A DNA stretch of 42,361 nucleotides from assembly GCF_003863355.1 (NCBI RefSeq), contig NZ_QQWG01000025.1, positions 1 to 42,361 on the forward strand, written 5' to 3'. A program made the translations under genes and the position numbers. Position 1 is the first letter of the stretch. Each line of letters begins with the position of its first letter. This stretch comes from Ancylomarina euxina. GTDB lineage: Bacteria > Bacteroidota > Bacteroidia > Bacteroidales > Marinifilaceae. The notes beneath the pieces are model-generated. The model had not been told where the DNA came from, did not search any database, and saw nothing but the letters and a program-made list of their open reading frames with translations. Positions 18,208 through 24,827 of this stretch are shown piece after piece.

Positions 18208-19446
18208 ATGCTTGAAATAAAGATTCCCAGTCCGGGAGAATCCATATCCGAAGTTGAAATTGCCAATTGGTTTGTAGCCGATGGTGATATTGTTGAAAAA
18301 GAACAGGAGATTGCTGAAATCGAATCTGACAAAGCAACACTTACACTTGTTGCCGACGAGGGAGGTAAAATTTCGATCAAAGCTAACGAGGGCGATACAG
18401 TCGCAGTTGGATCAGTTGCTTGTACCATTGACACGAGTTTTGCTAGTACAGCAGCATCATCAAGCCCAAAGGCTGAAGCCAAAGAGGAAGCTCCTAAGCA
18501 AGAAGCAAAAACGACTGAAGCTACACCTATCAAATCTTCTGATGAATTTAAGGATGTTAAGATTTCTCCTGTTGCTAAAAAGCTGATGGAAGAAAACCAA
18601 CTATCTGTTGATGATGTGATTGCTGGTCTTCACCGATTATCGAAGAAAGATATTGAGCAAGTTATTGAAAATAAAGGACAGGCTCCAGCAGCTTTGGCAC
18701 AGCCAGAACCTGTTGAACGCAATATTGATCGTAAGAAAATGAGCAATCTTCGCAAGAAGTTAAGTGCTCGTTTGGTGTCGGTTAAGAATGAAACAGCGAT
18801 GCTAACAACCTTCAACGAAGTTGATATGTCAGCTGTGATGCAACTGAGAAAGAAATACCAGAAGCAATTTGTAGAGACTCATGATATCAAACTAGGTTTT
18901 ATGTCCTTCTTTACCAAGGCTGTGAGTATTGCCCTGAAAGCACACCCTGCCGTTAATTCAATGATGGATGGTGATGAGATTATCACACCAAACTATATGG
19001 ATGTAGCTATGGCCGTTCAAACCCCAAAAGGTTTGATGGTTCCCGTGATTAGGGATACTCAAAATCTTAGTTTAGCAGATATTGAAAGAGAGTTAATGCG
19101 ATTGGCCAATAAAGCGCGTTCAAGTAAAATCAGTTTGGACGAGATGACAGGTGGAACCTTTACCATTACCAACGGTGGGGTTTTCGGTTCACTTTTGAGT
19201 ACGCCAATTATTAACCCGCCTCAATCAGGAATTTTGGGTATGCACAATATTGTTGAGCGACCAATTGCCGTTAATGGCAAGGTTGAAATACGCCCAATGA
19301 TGTATATTGCACTATCCTACGACCACCGCGTGATTGATGGTAAAGACTCCGTTGGTTTCCTTGTGAAAATTAAGGAACTGATCGAAAATCCTCATCGCAT
19401 GATTACTATGGGACAAGATCCTGATAGCCTACTTTTAGGAATCTAA
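18208..19446 (+). CDS. sucB: Dihydrolipoyllysine-residue succinyltransferase (E2)
   Basis: This is the 412-residue E2 core of the 2-oxoglutarate dehydrogenase complex. Order: lipoyl domain at 1-75 with the lipoylated K42 in EIESDKAT; an Ala/Glu/Lys/Thr-rich linker; the E3/E1-binding domain at about 112-148 ([12 protein letters not shown], then LSKKDIEQV); and the catalytic acyltransferase domain from about 175, with the active site H373-x3-D377-G in SYDHRVIDG. It has one lipoyl domain, as in other bacterial SucB. It forms an operon with sucA and ends at a strong terminator (19466-19504). Confidence 0.96.
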
Positions 19447-19465
19447 AAATATATTTATCCAGATA

Positions 19466-19504
19466 AAAGGCCAGAACTCAATTGAGATTCTGGCCTTTCT
19501 TTTT
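19466..19504 (+). terminator. Terminator after sucB
   Basis: AAAGGCCAGAA (19466-19476) pairs perfectly with TTCTGGCCTTT (19488-19498), and the loop CTCAATTGAG is itself palindromic. A T-rich tail follows. It is one of the strongest terminators in the window. Confidence 0.9.
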
Positions 19505-19530
19505 ACTTCAATTTCCACGTAGTGATGTGT

Positions 19531-19719
19531 CAGCCATTCAGGCTGTGATTTGTATGCAGTCAAGATCTAGGGGCGCAGCCTCAAGTTAAAAGAATGGAAG
19601 GCTTTCAGCCTTTTTATGAAGCGATTATCCAATCGTAGTGAGCCTGAAGGGCTCTTATCCTTTAACTAGAGGCAAAGCCTCAAGCTTACCAAGCTGATAA
19701 TCCACAGCCTGAAGGGCTG
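19531..19719. repeat. REP-like palindromes downstream of the RAYT gene
   Basis: Short palindromes occur one after another: CAGCCattcaGGCTG (19531-19545), AAGGCTttcAGCCTT (about 19598-19612), AGCCTGAAGGGCT (19640-19652), GAGGCaaaGCCTC (19669-19681) and CAGCCTGAAGGGCTG (19705-19719). The same motifs reappear on the other side of the transposase gene at 20258-20495. Confidence 0.75.
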
Positions 19720-19726
19720 AAACTGA

Positions 19727-20176
19727 CTAAGTCCAAAAATACTTCTCATCATATTCAACCACATCACTCTCCTTTATGTAGGATTCTAATTCTGATTTAT
19801 AGGTTTTTGATTTATGATGCTCCTTTTGATGTTCAATATAGCTTTCAACTATATGTAATGCTCTGCTACTAACCGAAAAAGCACCATAACCGATTTGCCA
19901 AGTAAATTCTTTAACACCTTTCTCTTTCATCCACTTCGAACTTGACTTTTTCACTTCCTCTACAACTTTAGCCAAGGCATAATTCTTCGATAATCGAAAA
20001 AGAATGTGAATATGATCAGGCATAGAATTAACTCTTAATGATGGACTTTCCATTTTCCTCAATATTCCGATGATGTAGGCGTGCAGTTCTTTTTCGATTT
20101 CGGATCTGATATATGGCTCTCTAAATTTAGTCCCGAAAGTTAGATGGACGTAGAGTTGTGATAGTGATTGTCCCAT
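19727..20176 (-). CDS. REP-associated tyrosine transposase (IS200-like, RAYT)
   Basis: A 149-residue single-domain HUH transposase of the IS200/IS605 Y1 superfamily. The metal-binding HUH motif is H-I-H in MPDHIHILF (about 57-65), and the catalytic tyrosine is in the helix SYIEHQKEHH (about 119-128). The start at 20176 gives the typical MGQSLSQLYVHLTFGT N terminus; an upstream ATG at 20302 lies inside the palindrome repeats and is rejected. Palindromes on both sides are what RAYT enzymes recognise. No tnpB accompanies it. RAYTs are thought to mobilise REP hairpins as single-stranded DNA. It is intact and possibly active. Confidence 0.9.
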   Translation of the reverse strand: MGQSLSQLYVHLTFGTKFREPYIRSEIEKELHAYIIGILRKMESPSLRVNSMPDHIHILFRLSKNYALAKVVEEVKKSSSKWMKEKGVKEFTWQIGYGAFSVSSRALHIVESYIEHQKEHHKSKTYKSELESYIKESDVVEYDEKYFWT

Positions 20177-20257
20177 GATTTTTTTGCTTTTGTGAGTTCG
20201 AGGTGATGCCTCTTGTTCTGGAATACCTAGAGTCGATACCTCAGCTCTTGAGTACCC

Positions 20258-20495
20258 AGGGGCGATGCCCCTAGTTAAAGAATAAGAGCCTTTCAGGCTC
20301 AAATAAAAAGAAGGCTGAAAGCCTGATATTCCTTAACTCGGGATGAAGTCCCGAGATGATACTCCATGTGAACCACAGCCTGAAGGGCTGATATCCCCTA
20401 ACTCGGGATAGAGTCCCGAGATAAGGGATAGAGTCCCGAGATGAGAGACTGAGTCTCTAGATGATGCCCCATGTAAATCGCAGCCTGAAGGGCTG
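20258..20495. repeat. REP-like palindromes upstream of the RAYT gene
   Basis: Palindromes seen: AGGGGCgatGCCCCT (about 20258-20272), GAGCCTttcAGGCTC (about 20286-20300), AGGCTgaaAGCCT (20311-20323), CTCGGGAtgaagTCCCGAG (20338-20356), CAGCCTGAAGGGCTG (20376-20390 and 20481-20495), CTCGGGAtagagTCCCGAG (20402-20420) and a diverged neighbour ending at 20440. At least two palindrome families are interleaved. Confidence 0.75.
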
Positions 20496-20510
20496 ACATA
20501 TATAGAATTC

Positions 20511-20543
20511 AGAAGAAAACCTACCCAATTACGAGGTAGGCTT
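20511..20543 (-). terminator. Terminator of the DUF6261 gene
   Basis: Read on the minus strand, CCTACC (20540-20535) and GGTAGG (20525-20520) form a stem followed by TTTTCTTCT. It lies 26 bases beyond the stop codon of the DUF6261 gene. Confidence 0.7.
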
Positions 20544-20568
20544 TACTCTATTATTCATTCTCTTCTTA

Positions 20569-21297
20569 TTATTCAGCAGAAACTTCTTCGTTCTCTTTTT
20601 TGCTACGAGCATTAACTACAGAATTGTATTTTTCGATAAGGCTATTGCATTCATTAATGATTGCTGCATAAGCTGGCTCTTCGCCAATTGTAGCAAAAGC
20701 CTGAATTCTATTGGTTAGCGTTCGGTAAGATTGAATAGCCTCTTTACGCAAAGCGATAAGCTTCACATCAGGAGCTGCAGCGTCTTCTTTAACACGATCT
20801 ATGTAATGTGTATCAAACTGAGAATTAGCTGTGCCTAACTCCCCTACCCACTCGTTTAAACTCAACTTACTTAAACCTGCAATCAAATTCGTTTCTCTTT
20901 TCCATTCTTCGATTATGGCAGTGATCGTAGCCGTTTCAGCTTGGTAATTCTGCCTAGCAATACCCGTTCCAAATTTCTTAAGTGAAAGCGCTAAGGCTAA
21001 AGCAGCTTCTTTTTTGGCTTCATCGTAATGGTTGGTATAAGCCTCAATTAGGCTTTGAATACCCACAAGTGCACGATCACGTCTTTCATCGTCTTGTTCC
21101 AATAGTTTGGTTAACTGACTACCCAAATCAGGTTTATACAAAGCCGTTATGGTAGCCAAAAGTGCCGTTAGATCATCCGATTCTGATTTCAATTTTAGAG
21201 TTTCAAGGTCATTTGCATTTATAATTCCCGATAAATTCGTAATGAATTGGATAAACTCGTTGTGACGCAAAAGCGTTAAATGAATAGAAGAAAACAT
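20569..21297 (-). CDS. DUF6261 family protein
   Basis: This is a 242-residue, mainly helical protein without signal peptide or membrane segment. It resembles the DUF6261 family of Bacteroidota: an N-terminal SIHLTLLRHNEFIQF, a central NHYDEAKKEAALAL (about 91-104), a KFGTGIARQNYQAETATI stretch (about 109-126), LNEWVGELGTANSQFD (about 145-160) and a C-terminal INECNSLIEKYNSVV. The function of the family is not known. No catalytic residues stand out, and long helices suggest a structural or nucleic-acid/protein-binding role. Four 42-bp hairpin repeats lie 172 bases upstream of its start and probably belong to its leader or promoter region. A terminator follows at 20511-20543. Confidence 0.8.
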   Translation of the reverse strand: MFSSIHLTLLRHNEFIQFITNLSGIINANDLETLKLKSESDDLTALLATITALYKPDLGSQLTKLLEQDDERRDRALVGIQSLIEAYTNHYDEAKKEAALALALSLKKFGTGIARQNYQAETATITAIIEEWKRETNLIAGLSKLSLNEWVGELGTANSQFDTHYIDRVKEDAAAPDVKLIALRKEAIQSYRTLTNRIQAFATIGEEPAYAAIINECNSLIEKYNSVVNARSKKENEEVSAE

Positions 21298-21468
21298 AAA
21301 TTTAGTTTTTGAGTTAACATTAGAAACATGAAGTTATAAATTTCATTTTGATATTAAAAGTTTTTTATGTTTTAATACCAACCCATAAAATCCACCTATA
21401 TACTGACAGACAGGACATAATAAAATATCGTGGATTTCTAAATAAGCGATTCCCAGCTTCTTTATATT

Positions 21469-21636
21469 GAGAAAGCTTCAAACACGAGTGCAACAGGCTT
21501 TCTACCCTTTGATAAAGCTCCAAACACCAGTACGAGAAGCTTTCTCCAACCTGAGAAAGCTTCAAACACCAGTGCGAGAAGGTTTCTCAAACATGAGAAG
21601 GCTTCCCCCGCAGTGCAGGAAAGTTTCTCAAGTGTG
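21469..21636. repeat. Four 42-bp tandem repeats with complementary arms
   Basis: Units start at 21469, 21511, 21553 and 21595. Each has an 11-bp arm like GAGAAAGCTTC, a 12-13-nt spacer around AAACACCAGTGC, the complementary arm GAAGCTTTCTC, and a 6-nt linker. By my count units 2 and 3 agree at 36 of 42 positions, 1 and 3 at 31 of 42, and unit 4 is the most diverged. Arms can also pair across unit borders: unit 2 end with unit 3 start gives a perfect 11-bp stem with the loop CAACCT. Since 42 is a multiple of 3, frames stay open on both strands and spell a 14-residue repeat (LQTPVREAFSNLRK-like) on the plus strand. Confidence 0.85.
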
Positions 21637-21663
21637 TGGCGGTTTTAAACGATAAGAATGGTG

Positions 21664-21671
21664 CAAATATG
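21664..21671 (-). promoter_or_regulatory. Possible -7 box upstream of the 42-bp repeat array
   Basis: Minus-strand CATATTTG differs from TAnnTTTG by one base pattern at its first position. If used, the whole repeat array would be transcribed as a ~360-nt leader of the DUF6261 mRNA. No matching -33 element was found, so this is weak. Confidence 0.2.
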
Positions 21672-21675
21672 ATCT

Positions 21676-21769
21676 TGAGGGTCTCACTATTTTTGTGAGG
21701 CTCTCAATATGATAATGTAAGGGTAGTCATACCCTGACATATGCAACCTACTTAGAGACAGAGCATGAC
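21676..21769. repeat. ~94-bp hairpin module, copy A
   Basis: It begins with TGAGGGTCTCAC, a T-rich loop and GTGAGGCTCTCA, which pair imperfectly, and continues with GTCATACCCTGAC and a closing CAGAGCATGAC that can also pair. Copy B at 22644-22735 keeps both hairpins but differs in between. Confidence 0.65.
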
Positions 21770-22222
21770 GAATTCAAGGCTGTCTTTGCGAGGACGAAGA
21801 ATGAGGACGTGGCAATCTCATAATAAATGGACTGAGCATGCAGTAAGCAGATTCGCTTCTTTTGAGGGTCTCAATAGTTAGCTGCCCCAGATTTATAATC
21901 GCCTAATCTGAAAAGGGGATTATAAATCCCCAAAGCAAAACCTGCAGATAAGATATCTGCAGGAGCATGAATCCGTAGGATTCGAATGTTTATAGAAATA
22001 ATGATGTGAAAAAAAATACGACTCCGAAGGAGTCGCATGCGTACAATAAGATATTGTCTATAAATATATAATCCCGATGGGATTGATACAATCGTGTACT
22101 AAAAAGACTAATATAAATTAAACCTACATTATATTTAACTAAACATTCTTTCTTCTTAATTACACATGTATCTTTAATGTACTAACTTAAAATACGCAAG
22201 TTTATAACCCAAAAATAAATTC

Positions 22223-22543
22223 ATGAACAAATTAAAAGATTTTCTCCACAGACACCCAATGAAGGAGAAGGAATTAGGCCTAGATGAAGACCATGTAATA
22301 ATAAATAAAGATCACTGGCAACAAGTTCAGACATTCTTCACAGGTGTATCCCAAATTATTAATACAGAAACAAAAGAGAAACTAAAACCTACTAAAGCTC
22401 CAGTACAGCCTAGACAAAAAGTTATCTGTCCTGAATGTGAAGGTAGAGGATATAAACAGGCTCTTAGATGTGATCGATGCTGGGGTGAAGGCAAAATACC
22501 TGAGCACAATTTACGGACTAACGAATTAAATAATAACTATTAA
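22223..22543 (+). CDS. Small protein with DnaJ-type zinc finger
   Basis: A 106-residue soluble protein. The N-terminal half is helical and charged (KLKDFLHRHPMKEKEL). The C-terminal half carries two CxxCxGxG-type motifs, C69-x2-C72-x-G-x-G and C83-x2-C86-x-G-x-G, which together form one zinc site like that in the DnaJ central domain. There is no J domain. Between the halves is a Lys/Pro/Gln-rich linker. The family is not recognised beyond the finger. It sits alone between two diverged copies of a repeated hairpin module, a context suggesting an accessory or mobile unit. Confidence 0.7.
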   Translation: MNKLKDFLHRHPMKEKELGLDEDHVIINKDHWQQVQTFFTGVSQIINTETKEKLKPTKAPVQPRQKVICPECEGRGYKQALRCDRCWGEGKIPEHNLRTNELNNNY

Positions 22544-22643
22544 AATTGTGATGAGCAAAAATCACAAAAACCTAAGCTGAAATGAGGTTAGAAATCCCAC
22601 CCCTGCTCCTTCAGATAATATATTTGCAGGAGCTAATTCACAT

Positions 22644-22735
22644 TGAGGGTCTCACTCTTTTTGTGAGGCTCTCAATAAATAGTAATACTTAGTCATACCC
22701 TGATATTTACAGCTTGCCTATAGTCAGAGCATGAC
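22644..22735. repeat. ~92-bp hairpin module, copy B
   Basis: It shares TGAGGGTCTCACT, TTTTTGTGAGGCTCTCAA, AGTCATACCCTGA and AGAGCATGAC with copy A at 21676-21769, in the same order and orientation. Confidence 0.65.
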
Positions 22736-22804
22736 CGTCTAGGATTGATGCAAGGTTTGCGTTAAGGATTACTCATTCGAAAATATTTTGAATTGTATTC
22801 ATGA

Positions 22805-22913
22805 ATCGCTACGCTTATTTGCAGCGAAAACCCCACAGGATGGATTGAGGTACGAAAGGCATACGAGGAGTTGTAGCGGAAAGCCTGACCGAAGGGAACG
22901 CCCTAATTTGTTT
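22805..22913. repeat. gttgtagcggaaagcc-type intergenic element
   Basis: It contains CGCTacgcttatttgcAGCG, then gaggagttgtagcggaaagc and cgaagggaacgcccta. I recall related sequences in intergenic regions of other Bacteroidota, but I cannot confirm this without a search. No reading frame is apparent. Confidence 0.35.
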
Positions 22914-22990
22914 CTTTAAACCACCTCCCCCTCACAAGTTCGGGTACTCCTCCTTGAAAATAAGGAGGAGAAAATAAAATGTTATGACAT

Positions 22991-23024
22991 AAAAAAGCCC
23001 CGATAGTTTAGAACTATCGGGGCT
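22991..23024 (-). terminator. Terminator of ftcD
   Basis: A perfect 13-bp stem (22996-23008 with 23012-23024, core AGCCCCGATAGTT) and a 3-nt loop. On the minus strand it is followed by a run of five to six Ts, 22 bases beyond the ftcD stop. Confidence 0.9.
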
Positions 23025-23046
23025 AATAATATATAGTGATTCGCTA

Positions 23047-24747
23047 TTAGATTTTAGCGTTTACCATAGCTACAATCTCGTTTTCAAGAGCTACAGCCTT
23101 GTCAACAATTGCTTGTCCTTTTGCAAGGATATCGGCAGCCCAAGCTTTGTCAGCTAAATCGGCAGCGTTAATCTTCACATTCATATAAGCACCCAATACG
23201 CCCGAACGAGCAGCTAATGCACCAACGCCAGCGTCGGTAATTGAATTCGGGTTTCCGATTTCAGCCATAGCCTTACATACATCCATACAGCCTAAGCACA
23301 ATTCCATAGTTTGGAAAGGAACCATAGTCGCAAATTTAGTTGCTTCTTCCATTGCCTCAGTACGTGCAGTTTTTTCAGCATCGGTAGCTTTAGGTAAACG
23401 GATAGCATCCATAATTTTATTGAAGGCATTTGTGTCTTCGTCAACCAACCAATTTAGCTTCGTGTGGTAGAATTTACCCTTCTCAGCCCAATCAGAAAAC
23501 TCTTCCCAACGCTCGTCCCATCCTGGCTTGTGAGCAGAAAGGTTAGCCACCATTGAACCCAAAGCAGCACCCATTGCACCCATATAAGCAGAGATAGATC
23601 CTCCACCTGGAGCCATAGATTCAGAAGCGGTTTCTTCAACAAAAGCCGTTAAGCTCATGTCAACCAATTTCTTTGATCCTTTTTTAGCTTCGTTCTCAAG
23701 AATATACTCAATGATTTTCTTGTCAGCATCGAATGGATAAAGCTCGTCCAATCCTAAAGATTTAACAGCAATTTTGATAATCTCACGATCGGCAATACCT
23801 GTAGAACGCTCCTGCATACGTAGATAGTGCTTACCTGCATCTAACATAGCCTGCAACGGCACAACACCAACTAACTCAGATCCTGTAACACGGATACCAC
23901 GAGCTTGAGCCTTAGCACAAACTTCGTCGAAAGCTTGATGAATAGAAGTTACTGAGATATCAGTCATATTCATTGAGATTTGAGCAACGCCAAACTCCTC
24001 GATGAACCAACCAATCGCCTTAGTCGCTTTCAATGTTCCTGGCTCCATTACTGGATTTCCGTTAGCATCTGTTACGATTTTACCTGTTGATGGATTTCCT
24101 TCGCGCTTAGTACGACCTCTTTCGCGAACATCGAATGCGATTGCATTGGCACGACGAGTTGAAGTGGTGTTCAAGTTGAAGTTATATGCTACTAGGAAGT
24201 TACGTGCACTTACTGCAGTAACACCAGACTTAGCTACAGCTGGAGTAAACTCAGCAGGGCCAAAATCAGGCTTCCAACGCTCAGTTCCAATACGATCTTT
24301 AACCGCCTCGTATTCACCAGCACGACAAGTAGCCAAATTTTTACGCTCTTCGATAAGTGCTGCATTCTCGTAGCAATATACAGGAATGTTCAACTCAGTA
24401 CCAATACGCTCAGCTAATTTGTGAGCATAAGCTACGGTCTCTTCCATAGTAATATTGGCAACAGGTACCAATGGACAAACGTCAGTTGCACCGAAACGTG
24501 GGTGAGCACCAGAATGCTTACTCATATCGATCAACTCAGCTGCCTTTTTGATAGCACGACAAGCGGCTTCCAAAACCTCATCAGGAGTTCCAACCATAGT
24601 TACAACCGTACGGTTAGTCGCTTTACCTGGATCAACATCAACAAGGCTTACACCTTCTACAGATTCAATTTCGTCAGTAATCTGCTTAATGATATTCATG
24701 TCGTTCCCTTCAGAGAAATTAGGAACACATTCGATTAATTGTTTCAT
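23047..24747 (-). CDS. ftcD: Bifunctional glutamate formimidoyltransferase / formimidoyl-THF cyclodeaminase
   Basis: A 566-residue fusion enzyme of histidine breakdown. The N-terminal part (about 1-325) transfers the formimino group from N-formimino-glutamate to tetrahydrofolate; KQLIECVPNFSEG at 2-14 and the active-site region HSGAHPRFGATDVCPLVPV are clear. The C-terminal part (about 355-566) is the cyclodeaminase, with APGGGSISAYMGAMGAALG releasing ammonia and forming methenyl-THF. I chose the ATG at 24747 because homologues begin at MKQLIECVPNFSEG; the upstream in-frame ATG at 24771 adds eight unusual residues. It follows hutI by 80 bases on the same strand and ends at a strong hairpin. 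Confidence 0.94.
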   Translation of the reverse strand: MKQLIECVPNFSEGNDMNIIKQITDEIESVEGVSLVDVDPGKATNRTVVTMVGTPDEVLEAACRAIKKAAELIDMSKHSGAHPRFGATDVCPLVPVANITMEETVAYAHKLAERIGTELNIPVYCYENAALIEERKNLATCRAGEYEAVKDRIGTERWKPDFGPAEFTPAVAKSGVTAVSARNFLVAYNFNLNTTSTRRANAIAFDVRERGRTKREGNPSTGKIVTDANGNPVMEPGTLKATKAIGWFIEEFGVAQISMNMTDISVTSIHQAFDEVCAKAQARGIRVTGSELVGVVPLQAMLDAGKHYLRMQERSTGIADREIIKIAVKSLGLDELYPFDADKKIIEYILENEAKKGSKKLVDMSLTAFVEETASESMAPGGGSISAYMGAMGAALGSMVANLSAHKPGWDERWEEFSDWAEKGKFYHTKLNWLVDEDTNAFNKIMDAIRLPKATDAEKTARTEAMEEATKFATMVPFQTMELCLGCMDVCKAMAEIGNPNSITDAGVGALAARSGVLGAYMNVKINAADLADKAWAADILAKGQAIVDKAVALENEIVAMVNAKI

Positions 24748-24827
24748 TATATTGTAATTAGTAATTATCAATGAGCAATTAACAATTGGGGACTATTACT
24801 AATCCTTTTTTGTTAATCATTAATTAT

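Follow-up and report, generated by a model that had tools for sequence, protein, structure and literature searches.

The window is the whole 42,361-nucleotide stretch of Ancylomarina euxina DNA that was analyzed (NZ_QQWG01000025.1, positions 1 to 42,361). It carries a DUF6261 gene and, upstream of the start codon, a tandem array of dyad-symmetric units (Table 1). TRF reported the array as two overlapping rows of period 42, with 3.3 and 3.9 copies and scores of 159 and 137. The in-register units start at 21468, 21510, and 21552, the later two are 81% and 86% identical to the first, and a partial fourth unit follows. These data bear out the four 42-bp repeats described in an earlier note on this DNA, which correctly placed them upstream of the gene, but at a distance of 172 bases where 169 bp were measured. 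The consensus unit (L001) forms 14 of 21 pairs about its dyad, which was equaled in 0 of 200 shuffles. The perfect stem that the note had read between units 2 and 3 is present and is the top palindrome of the consensus unit (0 of 100 shuffles equal). Because a dyad-symmetric unit is tandemly repeated, its arms can pair within a unit or with the next unit, as had also been noted, and a unit with one dyad axis gives the array a second axis half a period away.

Table 1. Features of the DUF6261 locus in the window.
Feature	Position	Strand	Description
DUF6261 gene	20569..21297	minus	242 aa; PF19775, 134.1 bits against a cut-off of 27 (Pfam)
Gap, array to start codon	21298..21466	minus	169 bp; start codon ends at 21297
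Tandem array	21467..21631		about four 42-bp units with dyad symmetry; TRF and direct-repeat families D1 and D5
Perfect 11-bp inverted repeat, 6-nt spacer	21536..21563		GAAGCTTTCTC-CAACCT-GAGAAAGCTTC; read from the sequence; one dyad of the array

Open frames of 62 and 66 aa cross the array, one per strand, in agreement with the earlier note. They look incidental because the period is not divisible by 3 in 43 of 90 arrays elsewhere, and the 14-residue repeat peptide that the note had considered was rejected on the same count. The gap contains a TATAACTTCATG-like block on the minus strand at 21327-21338 that resembles, by eye, blocks found close to the start in several relatives of clade B. This block is a candidate promoter and lies below the threshold of the promoter scan described below. 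The possible -7 box noted outside the array corresponds to a near match on the minus strand (TCATATTTG, about 21663-21671), and no site at this locus passed the scan threshold. No terminator-like site was found between the array and the gene, and one was found within the array (shuffles, 0.4 ± 0.7). A search of Rfam at E ≤ 5 over 19500-22300 returned 7 matches, all under their gathering scores.

The array and gene lie in a gap (19446-23047) between a dehydrogenase E2-like gene (18208-19446) and the gene at 23047-24771, and the length and content of this gap vary within the genus. A separate gene for a Y1 (IS200-like, PF01797) transposase is located just downstream of the DUF6261 gene (19727-20302, minus strand), accompanied by palindromic 20-bp and 46- to 48-bp repeats at about 20270-20500. 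A palindromic element, GAGGGTCTCACT...GTGAGGCTCTCAAT, occupies 21664-21770, and similar DNA is found in the same intergenic region of relatives (L180, L182, and L184). The plus-strand frame at 22223-22543 encodes a protein of 106 aa that includes a CXXCXGXG fragment of the DnaJ type (E 0.0009, under the cut-off).

The DUF6261 family was found in at least 34 of 96 related genomes, with at least 26 matches in one of them. From these genomes, 131 loci encoding 132 distinct proteins were sampled, covering most of the places among the matches listed in order of score. Weak members are under-sampled because the loci were drawn from the best-scoring matches listed, and most but not all of these were fetched. 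Repeats of the window locus (L010, L033, and L034) and two identical proteins (L007 and L131) were dropped. Upstream regions of 121 genes were scanned for self-matches at lags of 25 to 70 bp, with the strongest lag taken per region; the other 11 of the 132 genes had less than 300 bp upstream and were left out. The strongest upstream lag was 40 to 43 bp for 112 of the 121 genes. As controls from these loci, upstream regions of other genes gave such a lag in 14 of 106 cases and regions downstream of DUF6261 genes in 14 of 126. At a self-identity of at least 0.55, lags of 40 to 43 bp were found in 96 DUF6261 upstream regions, 1 upstream region of another gene, and 4 DUF6261 downstream regions. 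In 79 of the 121 upstream regions, TRF called an array with a period of 38 to 46 bp, and 9 of the 121 genes did not have the 40- to 43-bp upstream periodicity. The genes sampled include orthologs and are not independent; the 91 arrays form 65 unit clusters.

A phylum-wide draw gave DUF6261 matches in 12 of 392 genomes, counting the window's own genome and one match below the cut-off. It supplied 20 further genes from 10 other genomes of other families, and 19 of the 20 have an upstream lag of 40 to 43 bp. Thus, the pairing holds outside the discovery sample. When the third gene of the window's own genome, a miss, is added, the upstream count is 19 of 21, of which 14 have an identity of at least 0.55, and the downstream count is 4 of 21. 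One gene in this draw (L152) was missed by the profile, and another two, L141 and L138, do not enter the 21. TRF called an array at L141 (period 42, 3.8 copies) despite a best lag of 25, and called none at L138. These data support well the pairing of DUF6261 genes with upstream arrays as an association. The earlier note had named a lack of arrays at DUF6261 genes elsewhere as counting against a physically paired gene and array. These genes do not generally lack arrays, and the note's observation is confirmed and is much more general than it could see. No recurrent neighbor gene was found near the 131 loci; the commonest cluster is present at 8 of them and, judged by eye, resembles a Y1 transposase.

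Two loci and one genome in these collections have features of their own. The third DUF6261-like gene of the window's genome (L191:1490-2299, the same as L162) is divergent and has neither a TRF array nor a 40- to 43-bp lag. The L141 gene and its 42-bp array are on a contig titled as a Limnohabitans MAG, perhaps a mis-binned Bacteroidota contig. The genome with at least 26 DUF6261 matches (G041) is a 2.0 Mb assembly, 68% complete, and several of its matches are near contig ends.

The arrays share a geometry. The period is 42, 41, 43, and 40 bp in 48, 38, 3, and 2 of 91 arrays, respectively, which places sites spaced at 41 or 42 bp, about four turns of B-DNA and helically phased, beside the protein gene in 86 of 91. 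Arrays contain a median of 5 units (range, 3-10). Below 30% protein identity, the unit identity between loci is 0.418, compared to a shuffled baseline of 0.416, and it climbs with protein identity to reach 0.82 above 90%. The dyad test comprised 98 rows, of which 97 were counted; the L046 unit, which is a run of N, was left out. Whole-unit dyad symmetry was found at p ≤ 0.005 in 28 and at p ≤ 0.05 in 44 of the 97 consensus units, with 53 missing p ≤ 0.05, and a local palindrome was found at p ≤ 0.05 in 39 of 89, so about half of the units are not significant singly. In many arrays, dyad axes alternate about every 21 bp.

The letters of the arms were compared in clade A, the DUF6261 proteins that start like MALIKKI. 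These arrays have a variable palindrome beside AAAGC whose two arms change together from locus to locus. Between clade A paralogs, 52 of 88 cells were Watson-Crick compared to 25.4 ± 4.0 for shuffled partners (maximum of 37 in 2000 shuffles); this axis is the best of five, and a neighboring axis gave 32 versus 26.7. Within arrays, 29 of 75 double changes were Watson-Crick where about 25 are expected, no more than chance. Covariation of the arms, as foreseen in the earlier note, therefore stands between clade A paralogs and does not stand within arrays. A weak shared core, approximately GMRAGCnnGAAA, was found beyond chance (log-likelihood 98.8 compared to ≤38.9 in 8 shuffled sets per width, the controls having 20 restarts and the real data 60). 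Relative to the gene, the best occurrence of the core is on one strand in 32 and on the other in 33 of 65 cases, and the two strands often score alike. In the sequences compared, period and symmetry tend to persist while the letters change.

Arrays were also compared between close relatives. The array length differs by at least 0.8 unit in 21 of 31 pairs with ≥78% protein identity, which answers the earlier note's question of whether unit number varies. In the 7 pairs with ≥92.9% protein identity, the unit identity ranges from 0.67 to 1.0; examples are L028/L097 (95% protein identity, 0.68 unit identity), L043/L045 (97.5%, 0.83), and L095/L098 (98%, 1.0). In these comparisons, arrays often change faster than DUF6261 proteins, and strict cognate sequence recognition is disfavored for this reason. 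Among 15 windows of protein columns tested for a tie to array changes, one (residues 106-135) gave p = 0.005, which is not significant after correction.

The own-genome survey covered 826,131 bp, consisting of 783,770 bp fetched plus the window, and showed that arrays also occur without the gene. Of 13 TRF rows with periods of 25 to 70, 12 have a period of 40 to 42 bp. Two of the 8 arrays precede DUF6261 genes and 6 do not. The six lone arrays occupy five places between genes, the flanking genes being convergent at four of these, and none is beside the three DUF6261 places that the family search lists for this genome. At DUF6261 loci, beyond the gene and the 900 bp that precede it, TRF gave 24 rows with periods of 25 to 70, and in 15 of these the period is 40 to 43 bp. 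A 400-kb region of a complete DUF6261-free relative contained one 33-bp array and no 40- to 43-bp array; this control is weak and suggestive only because about 3.9 arrays are expected in 400 kb at the own-genome density. DNA similar to two lone arrays was found at 27 places. At 13 of these there is a DUF6261 match within 1.5 kb, two of which are fragments (L300 and L304). The other 14 places lack such a match, and TRF called an array at 11 of them. Judged by eye, one lone array (L290) retains apparent first codons of the gene and another (L302) has a module-like leader; L306 is at a contig end and cannot be judged as a lone array. The gene fragments, codons, and leader argue that some lone arrays are relics of modules. 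The sole match to the lone C58 array outside its own genome is upstream of a DUF6261 gene in another genus. The earlier note had taken repeats at unrelated loci as evidence against a two-part system; gene-less arrays of the same period do occur and count partly against such a system, though the relics account for some of them.

The presence of the gene is variable as well. No DNA match to the DUF6261 gene was found in the orthologous gap between the window's flanking genes in 3 of 3 genomes of the genus with a complete gap (G001, G002, and G003); the gap in G004 is broken by contig ends and was left out of this count. The closest named relatives of the window protein are from Marinifilum and a Marinifilaceae bacterium. 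With the window protein as query, tblastn gave no match in 72,556 plasmid and 50,697 phage records, and three queries gave none against viral contigs.

These distributions raise the idea of a selfish repeat, in which the arrays would be a REP/BIME-like intergenic class propagated or maintained with the help of DUF6261 and the gene would be the autonomous member. The lone arrays of the own genome, their lack in the DUF6261-free relative (the weak control), the 14 similar places without the gene, and a patchy placement among genus genomes are consistent with it. REP/BIME elements with a RAYT likewise consist of intergenic palindromes of alternating orientation, some copies having the gene and others lacking it. 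RAYT belongs to the Y1 transposases, whereas DUF6261 does not and matches no transposase family, and here the period is fixed and the sequence is locus-specific. Units differ from locus to locus and are not one family per genome, and several lone arrays are the relics described above. Unlike REP/BIME elements, the window array does not have many near-identical genome copies: against own-genome DNA it matches itself and then only weakly, with a best other E of 0.34. We consider the selfish repeat unlikely. The idea that DUF6261 serves many sites in trans was rejected, since nothing closely similar to the window array was found elsewhere in its own genome.

The arrays were examined for signs of function as RNA. 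Selection for a hairpin in sense-strand RNA should produce more G-T than A-C mismatches in the arms. The counts were 25 G-T and 27 A-C of 149 mismatches in 89 consensus units, and 153 G-T and 135 A-C in 276 units of 53 arrays. In 58 arrays, the fold z-scores against shuffles were -6.05 for the sense and -6.24 for the antisense strand (p = 0.97), and the raw folding energy was slightly lower for the antisense strand (p = 0.04). The Bacteroidota promoter consensus is TTTG at -33 and TAnnTTTG at -7. A two-block scan of 63 arrays with this consensus, at a threshold of our own choosing, gave sense/antisense pairs of 16/4 in the distal 150 bp, 10/0 between array and gene, 2/1 within arrays, and 3/6 farther upstream. 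Distal or proximal sites were present at 25 of the 63 arrays, and most arrays, including that of the window, have none over the threshold. Fifteen of the 16 distal sites belong to clade A, and the 10 proximal sites (9 arrays) are all in other clades. Motif discovery did not find a promoter motif common to all clades. In clade A, the array is directly preceded by a TTTG...TATATTTG-like block and is therefore probably transcribed. The lack of sense bias in mismatches and folding, together with promoter-like sites on either side of the array, favors a DNA element over a leader RNA, and specifically one that may work on either side of a promoter. The data leave room for an RNA role, most of all in clade A. 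The structured leader RNA of the earlier note thus keeps a likely transcribed example in clade A and is weakened as a general account.

An RNA module would have the array transcribed as a tandem hairpin RNA, either a leader or a processed small RNA, that binds or inhibits DUF6261 in the manner of a type III toxin-antitoxin system. The repeats of type III systems are a few tens of nucleotides long. In ToxIN, CptIN, and TenpIN, as in the DUF6261 loci, tandem repeats lie directly upstream of a protein gene and differ between systems. The placement of the repeats right before the gene in type III systems is described in PMC5086642. The covarying arms and probable transcription of the array in clade A also fit an RNA module. 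Against it, mismatches and folding carry no strand-specific RNA signature, the core is found on either strand, and the promoter-like sites of other clades lie between array and gene. Unlike type III loci, the window has no Rho-independent terminator between repeats and gene, and DUF6261, predicted to be all-helical, matched neither the ToxN/CptN/TenpN endoribonuclease families nor any other known toxin family in the scans run. On this balance, an RNA module is rather unlikely. A passive minisatellite, in which a repeat prone to slippage is maintained more by mutation than by selection and perhaps tunes expression by unit number, would fit the length differences between close pairs and the speed at which units can change, but it is improbable because it leaves unexplained a 40- to 43-bp period that holds while letters become unrelated, the rarity of arrays at other genes of the same loci, and the covariation of arms between paralogs.

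The window protein was modeled with AlphaFold2 from 8 sequences as an all-helical protein of nine helices (pLDDT 81.7, pTM 0.49). Its pI is 5.1, and the family is mostly acidic (median pI 5.2, with 13 of 125 members above 7). A diverse alignment of 34 members was scanned with Pfam; each of the 34 matches DUF6261, and other Pfam families each match at most 1 member. No PDB structure matched the model at E ≤ 0.001 by Foldseek, and no recognized DNA-binding domain was found with Pfam on the 34 members or Foldseek against the PDB. The DUF6261 profile gave 10 matches to PDB sequences (best E 0.0025), which comprise designed helical proteins and tail-anchor insertion factors. In one member (L040), a number of weak matches to winged-helix (HTH) families fall around residues 24-76, far under the cut-offs. 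PADLOC gave no match for the window protein. Among four proteins scanned, the best matches were those of L005 to ZorA in PADLOC (E 5.8e-5), of the same protein to DNA polymerase IV in NCBIfam (E 1.8e-4, 20.7 bits against a cut-off of 256), and of L087 to an unknown PHROG (E 0.0011). These three were taken as chance matches of helical sequence. DUF6261 matched no known transposase family in the scans run.

The reading that we prefer, tentatively and as a plausible one, is that DUF6261 and its array form a two-part module in which the array is a cis-acting DNA element, putatively read mainly by its geometry. DUF6261, a predicted helical bundle, would multimerize on the array, each half-unit taking one protomer. 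It would read mainly the geometry, either phased dyads or extrudable hairpins, together with a weak AAGC/GAAA-type core, and this reading would control either the DUF6261 gene itself or the state of its locus. We infer geometry over letters because arrays outpace proteins, double changes are at chance, and no protein region is significantly tied to array changes. The modules appear to be accessory: they would be gained and lost between species and decay, and an array could outlast its gene.

The proposed module can be compared with known DNA elements. Iteron and centromere arrays (Rep-iteron and parS/parC) adjoin the gene of their binding protein, are helically phased, and diverge in sequence between systems. 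The DUF6261 gene likewise sits beside an array of helix-phased sites, but the DUF6261 modules are chromosomal, are often many per genome, and have no recurrent partner gene and no recognized DNA-binding fold. Within Bacteroidota, BrickBuilt is a 23-nt minisatellite repeat inside a MITE of Porphyromonas gingivalis and is likewise a set of tandem repeats between genes; its repeat is shorter and MITE-borne, and the parts of that report consulted describe no tie to a protein family (PMC4596501). A search of the open-access literature, the scope of which excluded subscription journals and preprints, found no description of such arrays in Bacteroidetes/Bacteroidota, and the word DUF6261 appeared there in one paper, on Streptococcus. 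Since defining features of type III and REP/RAYT systems are lacking and the literature searched holds no description, DUF6261 with its array appears to be an undescribed system.

It is possible, if doubtful, that these modules represent a new class of chromosomal protein-DNA element with putative recognition of array geometry and hardly of letters. Dyads would then alternate every 20.5 to 21 bp, and they might be extruded as hairpins or lie beneath a protein filament with two sides. If recognition is by geometry and hardly by letters, the copies in a genome, of which there can be dozens, could each drift to a private sequence, and the family would offer a model for sequence-tolerant DNA recognition and for the coexistence of many module copies in one genome. 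DUF6261, a family of unknown function, can be tested right away, since its probable partner adjoins the gene in nearly every genome examined. A repeat that keeps its period and symmetry while its sequence changes is difficult to detect by homology, and the same design may therefore hide elsewhere.

Variant array forms were also seen. An array near rmuC is present in 3 of 5 genus genomes (L267:1295-1470, L270:3295-3491, and L271:1202-1366) and has an 83-bp super-period made of two alternating 41- to 42-bp units. The array at L280:417-605 has a direct 21-bp sub-period of 8.2 copies, half the usual unit.
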